From the IMG/VR virus record IMGVR_UViG_3300045825_000402, positions 1 to 24,735 of that record: a stretch of 24,735 bases of DNA. One strand, written 5' to 3'. The position numbers were made by a program, and so were the translations under genes. Source of the DNA: a virus. The notes beneath the pieces are model-generated. The model was not told the origin of the DNA. It saw nothing but the letters and a program-made list of their open reading frames with translations, and made no database searches. This document shows, piece after piece, positions 2,783 to 5,311 of this stretch (position 1 is its first letter; every line of letters begins with the position of its first letter).

Positions 2783-3006
2783 CCACAGGCATTGACGCAT
2801 GCGCTTTGTGTGTTGCCGATTCTGGCGTGCATGATTTTTCAAGGGTGTGCTGTACAGCGCGCTATATCGTGAGCATTCCGCTCAAACAAAACCGCGTGGG
2901 TTGGCTAGAGCGAATCAAGGCGCGCAAGCCTGCTGATTTTCACGCCTCGCTGTTATTGCAAGTTAAAGCACGTTGGGCACTGAAACGGGGGGGGGCTAAT
3001 GGATAA
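2779..3006 (+). CDS. Small Cys-containing early protein, 75 aa
   Basis: The start at 2779 overlaps the upstream stop (ATGA) and the end overlaps the start of the replication gene by 8 bp. The N-terminal half has CALC (residues 8-11) and a CC pair followed by ARY (24-28), which could form a small zinc site. The rest is basic and helical (KARKPADFHASLLLQVKARW). Similar short Cys-bearing proteins are common before phage replication genes, but I cannot name the family. A longer frame upstream duplicates the coding region of the 83-aa gene and was not used. Confidence 0.6.
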   Translation: MTTGIDACALCVADSGVHDFSRVCCTARYIVSIPLKQNRVGWLERIKARKPADFHASLLLQVKARWALKRGGANG

Positions 3007-5050
3007 GCCGCGCGCTGTCTGGTCGCCGATTACCCCCGTCCCCGCAGATGCGCCAGCCGCCCGCTTGCGGCATAACACGCGCGGGGAGCCGCTGCGTGCG
3101 TTTATCTATTATGATCAACAAAATCAGTTATTGGGCTATACGGCGCGCTTTTTAACTTCAAGCGGCGAAGCGGTGCACATGCCAATGACCTGGTGCGCCG
3201 ATCAGGACGGTATGCACGGTTGGCGCTGGATTCAATTTGCGCGCTATAGGCCGCTATACGGCCTTGAGCAGCTGAGCGAAAGCATCGAAGATAATTCAAG
3301 CTGGGTAGTGATTGTCTTTGATGAAAACGAAGCTGAAGCGGGCAAGAAGTTAATTCCTTGGGCACGCTTTGTATCATGGCCGGGCGGTATTCGCAAAATA
3401 GATGAGGTCGATTGGTCAGTATTGCGTGAGCAAAATATTGTTATCTGGCCAACTCTGTCGCGGGATCGCGCCAAGGTGCGGCGTGACGATGAAACAGGTG
3501 GCGCGATTCTGCCACGCGAAAAGCAATCGAACTGGGTCGCTGCACTTAAGCTTGAAAAAATCCTATTGGGTTTTAATTGCAAAATATTGGGGATCGTGAA
3601 TCCGTTTGATCAGCCTGATTTGCCAGAAAACTTCGGCCCAGCCATTGCCGAATTGCATCATTGGGACGAAAAGCGCGTCACAGATTATGTGTTTGCCAAT
3701 GCCGGCAAAGGCATTGGGACAGAGCAAGAGCAAAAGGTACGCAAAGGGCGTGGTGAGCGTATCGAGGCCGATCCACCAGTTGAGCCTGTAGTGCCTGAAT
3801 TCAAGCCGGAAGACGGCTGGGAATTTCACCTGATCCGCAAAAATGGCGAACTGGTGAACTGCCTGGCAAACGTGCACGATTGTTTAGCCAATTCGCCCGA
3901 GTGGCAGGGCGTGATCAAATTTAACGATTTCACCATGGCGGTGGATAAATGCGCATTGCCCCCCTATGCGCACGCAGAAATTGGCGAATGGACTACAACC
4001 GACGATTCCCGCACCGCCATGGAATTGAGCCGCAAATTCAGGTTTACGCCGTCCTCGGTGTTGATTAAAGAGGCAATCGAAGTCATTGCGAGAGAAAACA
4101 GTTATCACCCCGTGCGCGATTGGTTGCGCAGCCTGAAATGGGATGGCATTAGCCGTGTGGATGATTGGTTATCAGATTATCTGGGTGTACCCAAAACAGA
4201 ATACTCCTGGCGTGTGGCGCGCTGGTTTTTAATGGGTATGGTGGCGCGCGTGATGCGTCCGGGTGAAAAGTTTGACTATTGCCTAGTGCTGGAAGGTTCG
4301 CAAGGCCGCTTGAAAAGCACTACGCTCAGTATTCTGGGTGGTGCGTACTTTGGTGATACGGACATCAACCTTGATAACAAAGATTCCATGACTGCGATTC
4401 GCGGCAAATGGCTGTATGAGTTTCAGGAATTGGGCAGTTTGGCCAAACACGAATCATCTAAACAAAAGAGTTTTATTTCGCGCCGGATTGATGAGTTTCG
4501 ACCCGTCTACGGGACGCGCGAAATTAAATGCCCGCGCCAGGTGGTGTTTGCTGGCACGACTAACGAGGAACTGGGTTGGAATAAAGACCCAACAGGCGGT
4601 CGTCGTTTTTGGCCAATTCAGATTTTGAGTGAGATTAATATTCAGGGCTTAAAAGATGCGCGTGAGCAGCTCTTTGCCGAGGCTTTGGCATTGTTTGATA
4701 GCGGTGAACGTTTTCATCCGATCAGCGATGAGCAGCGCGTTATTTTCGATCCTGAGCAGCTAAAACGCGAACAACAGGATTCACTGGTCGACATCTTGCA
4801 CGACTGGGTAGATGACCAATACCGTGATTTCTCCCTGGCCACTGCCGCCATTGATGGTTTAAAAGTAGATGCATCCAAATTGACAAAGGATTTGCAAACC
4901 CGGGTGGGTTATGCGCTCAAGAAACTCGGCTGCAAGAGAGTCGAAAAACGTAACGGCATGATTCGCTATTGGTACAGTCCGCCACAGAAACCGGACAAAA
5001 AGCTGAGTGACCTGCCTGTTAAAAAGGAGGATGACAATGAGCCATTTTAG
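2999..5050 (+). CDS. VapE-family replication protein (degenerate TOPRIM plus helicase)
   Basis: A 683-aa protein with a VapE (virulence-associated E) P-loop ATPase domain at about 365-600: a WDGISRVDDWL lead-in, Walker A GSQGRLKS (433-440), a Walker B-like WLYEFQEL (471-478), and the family block FAGTTNEELGWNKDPTGGRRFWPI (517-540). Residues 100-155 resemble a phage primase TOPRIM region (VVIVFDENEAEAG...VSWPGGIRKI...DWSVL...IVIWP), but the usual EGEK reads DENE and the WPDAD acidic pair is missing, so catalysis there is doubtful. Such proteins start phage DNA replication as helicase or primase-helicase. The start overlaps the preceding gene by 8 bp behind a G-run. It ends seven bases before the iteron array, as expected for an initiator next to its origin. 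Confidence 0.9.
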   Translation: MDKPRAVWSPITPVPADAPAARLRHNTRGEPLRAFIYYDQQNQLLGYTARFLTSSGEAVHMPMTWCADQDGMHGWRWIQFARYRPLYGLEQLSESIEDNSSWVVIVFDENEAEAGKKLIPWARFVSWPGGIRKIDEVDWSVLREQNIVIWPTLSRDRAKVRRDDETGGAILPREKQSNWVAALKLEKILLGFNCKILGIVNPFDQPDLPENFGPAIAELHHWDEKRVTDYVFANAGKGIGTEQEQKVRKGRGERIEADPPVEPVVPEFKPEDGWEFHLIRKNGELVNCLANVHDCLANSPEWQGVIKFNDFTMAVDKCALPPYAHAEIGEWTTTDDSRTAMELSRKFRFTPSSVLIKEAIEVIARENSYHPVRDWLRSLKWDGISRVDDWLSDYLGVPKTEYSWRVARWFLMGMVARVMRPGEKFDYCLVLEGSQGRLKSTTLSILGGAYFGDTDINLDNKDSMTAIRGKWLYEFQELGSLAKHESSKQKSFISRRIDEFRPVYGTREIKCPRQVVFAGTTNEELGWNKDPTGGRRFWPIQILSEINIQGLKDAREQLFAEALALFDSGERFHPISDEQRVIFDPEQLKREQQDSLVDILHDWVDDQYRDFSLATAAIDGLKVDASKLTKDLQTRVGYALKKLGCKRVEKRNGMIRYWYSPPQKPDKKLSDLPVKKEDDNEPF

Positions 5051-5073
5051 CCCAAAGGTGGGGAACGTAGGGC

Positions 5074-5280
5074 AAGGTGGGGAAGGCTGTAACCCGCGCC
5101 AACGCTCAGGGTTCCTAACCTTCCTAACCTTCCTAACCTTTTTTCCTCCCGCGTACACACGAGCGCAGGCACGCACACCCGCGCATATACGCGCGTGCGC
5201 GCATGACCTCATTTACGTTAGGAAGGTTAGGAAGGTTAGGAACCCTGGCGTATTTATTGGCTTACAGCCTTCCGCACCTT
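5074..5280. repeat. Nested inverted repeats around a 79-bp core
   Basis: The inner arms 5107-5137 and 5217-5247 are a perfect 31-bp inverted repeat made of three iterons plus CAGGGTT/AACCCTG. The outer arms 5074-5092 and 5262-5280 are a 19-bp inverted repeat with one mismatch. The spacers between inner and outer arms are 14 bp on both sides, and ACGC/GCGT pairs can extend the inner stem past a one-base bulge. The structure can form a large cruciform in DNA or a long hairpin in early mRNA. Confidence 0.9.
5138..5216. other. Core of the palindrome with alternating purine-pyrimidine tract
   Basis: The 79-bp loop between the inner arms starts with a pyrimidine tract (CTTTTTTCCTCCC) and continues with a long mostly alternating purine-pyrimidine run about 5148-5205 (GCGTACACAC, GCACGCACAC, GCGCATATACGCGCGTGCGC). 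Such sequence favours Z-DNA or easy distortion under supercoiling. No gene is credible here. Confidence 0.6.
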
Positions 5281-5291
5281 TTGAAAAGGTG
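5275..5291. repeat. Short palindrome CACCTTTT-G-AAAAGGTG
   Basis: An 8-bp perfect inverted repeat with a single central base, formed where the last reverse iteron (5270-5278) meets the next forward iteron (5288-5296). It could be a paired initiator site or a small hairpin ahead of the 58-aa gene. Confidence 0.6.
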
Positions 5292-5311
5292 GGGAAGGTG
5301 AGGAACCTCTC

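Follow-up and report, generated by a model that had tools for sequence, protein, structure and literature searches.

The closest described systems to the element reported here are the Rep-ori modules of SaPI and PICI elements (Ubeda 2007, as cited in PMC7581432; Fillol-Salom 2018, PMC6092414), in which two sets of iterons flank an AT-rich region directly on the 3′ side of the gene for the self-loading Rep helicase (PMC6092414, PMC7581432) and the origin is read by the C-terminus of Rep (PMC7581432). Repeated initiator-binding words are likewise found at iteron plasmid origins and in the lambda ori, the target of the O protein; there the iterons are longer and direct, are usually accompanied by DnaA boxes and an AT-rich DNA-unwinding element (DUE), and in lambda lie inside the initiator gene. 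The initiators of iteron plasmids (RepA, Pi, RepE) are winged-helix proteins, and the origins recognized by SV40 large T and papillomavirus E1 have a mirror arrangement of sites. Large T and E1 are self-loading helicases which find their own origin via repeated sites with an adjoining opening region, and they bind DNA via an N-terminal domain (PMC7581432).

The VapE family, named after an old association with virulence, is widespread in phages, and VapE-family helicases were found in 666 phage records. The literature searched, whose coverage was thin for subscription journals, says little about where VapE acts in phages; the search returned no paper with both "VapE" and "iterons" and no description of the element presented here. 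We analyzed an array of short repeats next to a vapE gene and consider it very likely, on the basis of comparative sequence evidence, that this array serves a temperate phage as its origin of replication, with the VapE helicase of the phage itself as the reader.

Architecture of the array

The window, which is the whole 24.7-kb stretch of viral DNA analyzed, contains a region with the gene order CII-like regulator, vapE, small ORFs, HNH endonuclease, and terminase. The array occupies positions 5057 to 5305 between vapE and the next ORF (Table 1); its first unit starts 6 bp downstream of the vapE stop codon (TAG, 5048 to 5050), and the genes on both sides have the same direction. Eleven 9-bp units had been reported in the initial annotation. 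Ten of them are exact copies of GGTNNGGAA, but the third forward inner unit (5216 to 5224) reads CGTTAGGAA and has one mismatch. The entire window holds 12 GGTNNGGAA units, whereas 100 dinucleotide shuffles gave 2.2 on average and never more than 6. Along the array, two forward units are followed by a 36-bp step, three reverse units, the core, three forward units, a second 36-bp step, and finally one reverse and two forward units, the distance from outer unit to inner triple being exactly 36 bp from start to start in both arms (5076 to 5112 and 5234 to 5270). The perfect 31-bp inverted repeat noted earlier was recovered at 5107-5137/5217-5247 with 79 nt in between, and the 19-bp inverted repeat with one mismatch falls inside an outer inverted repeat (5074-5095/5259-5280) in which 20 of 22 positions are complementary.

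Table 1. Positions of the array elements and of the vapE features in the window
Feature	Position	Strand	Basis
vapE, 683 aa; DnaG/TOPRIM-fold-like N-terminal region, VapE-like P-loop helicase domain, C-terminal winged helix; proposed initiator	2999..5050	+	PF05272, 7pds, AF2/Foldseek
Predicted winged-helix iteron-reading domain, VapE residues 595-660	4781..4978	+	AF2 model, structure matches, C-terminus/array linkage
Codon of Tyr657, sole VapE position perfectly predicting unit sequence	4967..4969	+	Column scan, tree
Outer unit GGTGGGGAA, left arm	5057..5065	+	Exact unit match
Outer unit GGTGGGGAA, left arm, 36 bp ahead of inner triple	5076..5084	+	Unit match, spacing
Linker motif GGCTGTAACCC adjoining outer unit; family consensus ~gCCTGAAAnCC	5085..5095	+	Two-arm profiles; within outer inverted repeat
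Left-arm inner unit 1 (GGTTAGGAA)	5112..5120	-	Exact unit match
Left-arm inner unit 2	5121..5129	-	Exact unit match
Left-arm inner unit 3	5130..5138	-	Exact unit match
Core, 77 nt, GC 0.60, purine/pyrimidine-alternating, short T/A-rich edges; proposed opening region	5139..5215	.	Composition, alternation scan, profiles
Right-arm inner unit CGTTAGGAA, one mismatch	5216..5224	+	Sequence check
Right-arm inner unit	5225..5233	+	Exact unit match
Right-arm inner unit	5234..5242	+	Exact unit match
Right-arm linker motif (GGCTTACAGCC on + strand), mirrors 5085-5095	5259..5269	-	Inverted repeat, profiles
Outer unit GGTGCGGAA, right arm, 36 bp beyond inner triple	5270..5278	-	Unit match, spacing
Outer unit GGTGGGGAA, right arm	5288..5296	+	Exact unit match
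Outer unit GGTGAGGAA, right arm	5297..5305	+	Exact unit match

The array recurs on the 3′ side of vapE

A single-protein search for relatives of the window VapE yielded 13 loci, in 10 of which the array lies exactly 3′ of vapE; of the remaining three, one is truncated by the end of its contig and two are without GGTNNGGAA. Using an 18-mer from the array as the pattern in a gene-blind scan, we obtained additional loci of the same layout. When layout alone was searched for (two tandem units, 66 to 96 nt, two inverted units, with the NN positions free), 52 viral stretches and 19 GTDB genome stretches matched, compared to 1 match in a control scan with both arms in one orientation. The GTDB matches include Nitrosomonas, Nitrosospira, Thiobacillus, Dechloromonas, Azoarcus, Aromatoleum, Methylovorus, and relatives, and the named host genera are all betaproteobacterial. 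A vapE homologue was present in 81 of the 84 core-layout loci, near-copies of one phage being counted apart, and in these 81 loci the array was always located on its 3′ side, with 116 to 257 bp between the end of the vapE match and the array center. The array is a recurrent family and not unique to the window; the GGTNNGGAA-type arrays with conserved two-arm spacing which the initial annotation had proposed to look for recur beside vapE in diverse phages. At L076, one of the other three loci, the array directly follows a C-terminus of VapE type (...ETYAPF stop).

Two arrays were located on fragments that carry no vapE. The one in L074 (6308-6474) has GGTGGGGAA units and an AT-rich core and lies beside terminase/portal-like ORFs, and the one in L078 (207-338) has an alternating core with TTATCCACA close by.

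In the window, HNH and terminase genes are found within 1 to 3.5 kb downstream, as might be the case if the array were a packaging or recombination site, that is, a cos, pac, att, or resolution site. The array is fixed relative to vapE, however, whereas its distances to the genes for TerS (1.3 to 2.7 kb), TerL (1.8 to 2.9 kb), and HNH (0.7 to 2.1 kb) vary, an endolysin gene follows the array instead in phage PS3, and the protein that covaries with the unit is VapE (see below). We regard such a site as very improbable, and a terminase-linked site in particular was rejected on account of the variable spacing to the terminase genes.

The geometry is conserved even where the unit word has diverged

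Among 70 non-redundant loci, three inner units at 9-bp spacing were present in 65 left and 60 right arms, and the outer unit of opposite orientation was recognizable 36 bp from the inner triple in 57 left and 58 right arms. Beside the outer unit, both arms have a linker motif in common, GGTNNGGAA-g-CCTGAAAnCC (70 loci). The spacing and linker shared by both arms indicate that the element consists of two inverted copies of one half-site. In both unit classes, the consensus (TA or AT) is followed more closely by inner units than by outer ones, which tend to TG/GG or GT (p=8e-10 and p=6e-5 for the two classes); this suggests graded affinity, with strong inner and weaker outer sites.

The geometry was retained in L016 with the diverged units GATATGGAA/CATATGGAA and in L144, whose inner arms use the diverged GGTGTGGGA. 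Neither a DNA search with the array nor a protein search with the VapE C-terminal domain gave a match among named phages, and the layouts in named phages were found solely by reading the DNA 3′ of distant vapE genes. Marinobacter phage PS3 uses the unrelated word GGNNTGACC with spacings of 20, 36, 9, 9, core, 9, 9, 36, and 20, APSE-2 uses the unrelated word GGTTGTTAC with a right arm of 9, 9, and 36, and Pseudomonas phage Haddon has GTNGGACAG at 8 to 9 and 32 to 33 bp. In Staphylococcus phi2958PVL and Paenibacillus phage GIW2016, inverted units with other spacings are located 3′ of vapE. No convincing nested array was seen in Acidovorax phage Aval and Burkholderia phage Mica, and no clear array in the satellite Javan41.

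In APSE-2 (L190, LR794152), the nested GGTTGTTAC array spans 2675-2973 at the 3′ end of vapE and combines the 36-bp arm spacing with an AT-rich core. The same record annotates a putative origin elsewhere, at 113-213 upstream of a cro-like gene.

Residue 657 of VapE tracks base 5 of the unit

The window VapE matched PF05272 (E=1.3e-65) and contains a Walker A motif, GSQGRLKS, at residues 433-440. It also gave a Foldseek match at E=1.3e-21 and a profile match at E=1.3e-67, the latter to PDB 7pds, which is PriRep1 with dsDNA, deposited with six chains and with the molecule name "Similar to D. nodosus vapE." The AF2 model of the full-length protein had a pTM of 0.47. In the model, the C-terminal region comprises helices 595-605, 613-621, and 630-642 and strands 646-649 and 655-658, and when modeled separately this domain matched winged-helix proteins with a best Z of ~7. 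The domain is therefore a predicted winged helix, and residue 657 would lie in a strand of its wing. Relatives that bear the array share the C-terminal domain LDASKLTRDLQTRxGxALRKLGC...R[YF]WY or a recognizable variant. None of the relatives in which the C-terminus differs (L017, L160-162, L165-181, and L183) has a GGTNNGGAA array.

Unit class and residue 657 agreed in 77 of 77 non-redundant loci: F, H, or S at this position goes along with T at base 5 of the unit, and Y, R, or P with a base other than T, nearly always A or G. In Y657 loci, 255 of 264 units have A or G, and in F657 loci all 297 units have T; one of the Y loci, L145, carries a mixture of units. When 645 VapE columns were scanned without bias, residue 657 reached an MI/H of 1.00 and the next best column 0.47. 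On the best tree, built from the helicase part alone, the unit class switched 14 times, at least 9 of these switches being independent and on well-supported branches, and residue 657 changed each time (sign test, p=0.004). Because residue 657 tracks base 5, VapE itself is very probably the protein that binds the array and reads its word. The 58-aa protein, which had been put forward as another possible binder, is not a good candidate, as its ORF was found in 3 loci only. The residue-657 code predicts that a Y657F exchange shifts the preference at base 5 from A/G to T (GGTTAGGAA versus GGTATGGAA triples).

In L017, L167, L174, L177, and L180, which have a different C-terminal domain, inverted TGTCCA units were observed on the 3′ side of vapE, as though the word had been exchanged along with the C-terminal domain.

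Covariation tells who binds but not why, and VapE might bind the array as an operator that controls downstream transcription or feeds back on the supply of VapE, with replication beginning elsewhere. The location of the array between codirectional genes is in line with such a role, and expression could be influenced by those outer units that lie close to the following start codon. On the other hand, the candidate binder is a helicase/primase-like protein and not a regulator, the downstream genes vary (the 58-aa ORF being confined to the 3 loci mentioned and the terminase and HNH offsets being scattered), and an operator needs neither two fixed mirror arms nor an alternating core of 55 to 99 nt. 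An operator role is therefore improbable in our judgment.

The palindrome is probably a by-product of the repeated word

The initial annotation had implied that the large palindrome is selected as such and considered cruciform extrusion. A test of 29 heterogeneous loci, using only the two variable bases of the unit, does not support either idea: facing units across the core were alike in 30 of 65 cases, compared to 29.2 expected by permutation (p=0.46), and selection on arm-to-arm complementarity was not apparent. As facing units match no better than permuted ones, the palindrome appears to be a by-product of one word repeated in both directions. The perfect 31-bp inverted repeat of the window would also fit a palindrome that works as a nucleic-acid structure, either as a DNA cruciform or as a long transcript hairpin serving as terminator, attenuator, or processing site. 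Besides the result for position-matched units, it speaks against this reading that outer units keep the same word in either orientation, that no Rfam family matched, and that the unit word is tied to VapE residue 657; a structural role of this kind is highly improbable.

The core is alternating and GC-rich

The core had been described as a 79-bp alternating purine-pyrimidine tract. It is in fact the strongest alternating 60-mer of the window (L005), but the alternation is not strict, with ~70% of steps compared to ~50% in shuffled sequence and a longest alternating run of 26 nt. Across the family, the core is 55 to 99 nt long. In the 70 loci its mean GC content is 0.61 versus 0.60 in the flanks, and 0.74 of steps alternate versus 0.50 after shuffling, a difference that was significant in 69 of 70 loci. 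The steps CG, GC, CA, and AC are enriched, and the first 5 and the last 6 nt are AT-rich. In the clade of the window VapE, the core is the strongest alternating stretch within ~4 kb in 77 of 81 loci. Outside this clade an alternating peak 3′ of vapE was found in only 5 of 27 loci, and the peak was consequently rejected as a universal mark of VapE. The core of APSE-2 is AT-rich (GC 0.21) and has an (AT)n run.

These properties raise the question whether a Z-prone GC-rich tract is able to replace an AT-rich melting element. We put forward only tentatively, and as a rather unlikely possibility, that the core represents a new kind of DNA-unwinding element, in which a Z-DNA-prone tract would take the place of the AT-rich stretch, flip under negative supercoiling, and perhaps set the topology such that two VapE hexamers have to open only the AT-rich edges of 5 to 6 bp.

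Proposed mechanism and comparison with known origins

The role suggested in the initial annotation, a VapE-linked, initiator-binding origin with two symmetric arms, gains support from the conservation of the layout beside vapE and from the covariation of the winged helix with the unit. In the mechanism that we propose, VapE subunits would use their winged helices to bind the inner triple of either arm. Sites 9 bp apart are turned by about -51 degrees, which is near the 60 degrees between ring subunits, so that each arm could nucleate one hexamer, and the more degenerate outer units may be weaker assembly or control sites. Two VapE hexamers, facing one another across the core, would then open its arm-proximal parts, and recruitment of the host replisome would give two forks. 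DnaA is probably dispensable; the DnaA box TTATNCACA was found near 1 of 70 arrays and not near that of the window. Some points speak against the origin reading: the uninformative GC skew of the window, which shows no turn at 5.2 kb and has its cumulative maximum at ~9 to 10 kb, the arrays of L074 and L078 on fragments lacking vapE, the core that is not AT-rich, the low share of loci (5 of 27) with an alternating peak 3′ of vapE outside this VapE clade, and the pTM value of the full-length VapE model.

The element resembles the SaPI/PICI modules in four respects, namely, the PF05272-family helicase, a homologue of 7pds, the position directly 3′ of the initiator gene (a likeness by position only; 6 bp in the window, 81 of 84 loci), the two iteron sets flanking a central region, and the C-terminal domain setting unit recognition, which is judged here by covariation (77 of 77 loci). 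It differs in having an alternating core instead of an AT-rich center (mean core GC 0.61; window, 0.60) and strict mirror-image arms of fixed 9-bp/36-bp geometry. In addition, it belongs to a whole temperate phage and not to a helper-dependent satellite: the window encodes its own small and large terminase subunits, identified by family search, and portal, capsid, and tail ORFs, recognized by reading. As most SaPI/PICI features are present but the AT-rich center is lacking and the carrier is a phage, we consider the element a variation on the SaPI/PICI Rep-ori module. The claim of a new type of origin had to be dropped, since SaPI/PICI origins already combine a Rep helicase gene with two sets of iterons on its 3′ side (PMC6092414, PMC7581432). 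A type of origin that has been claimed for PICI satellites exclusively would thus extend, in outline, to whole phages, which bears on the exchange of replication modules between satellites and phages.

Compared to iteron plasmids and lambda, the units here are contiguous 9-bp words in both orientations. Unlike a DnaA-dependent iteron plasmid origin, with its DnaA boxes beside direct iterons, the window array has no such box nearby and, in contrast to the lambda iterons, begins past the stop codon of the initiator gene. The proposed mode of action is like that of large T and E1, for which no homology is claimed and whose DNA-binding domain is N-terminal and not C-terminal as proposed for VapE. 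The analysis yields a concrete candidate origin map consisting of a fixed geometry and a one-residue code between helicase and word.

Further features of VapE proteins

The window VapE ends with the acidic tail EDDNEPF (5027-5047). Among 102 non-redundant relatives, 59 end with PF and 74 with F, and these endings occur in both C-terminal domain classes. The tail is similar to the acidic tip of SSB in bacteria, and it might attract SSB-binding replication proteins of the host. In L051, a Nitrosomonas MAG, the VapE reading frame is closed directly behind the winged helix (KAPTEMG stop) and the tail is gone, while the 13-unit array is intact.

An EGEK motif (VapE residues 107-111; window 3317-3331) is kept in 72 of 94 long relatives and absent from 22; the window VapE has FDENE. 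Where EGEK is absent, the DnaG/TOPRIM-like N-terminal part may, as a prediction, have lost catalysis. Finally, L030 (10292-10495) contains a separate ORF of 147 aa that shares 46% identity with the VapE C-terminal domain and is devoid of a helicase part, possibly a stand-alone competitor for origin binding.
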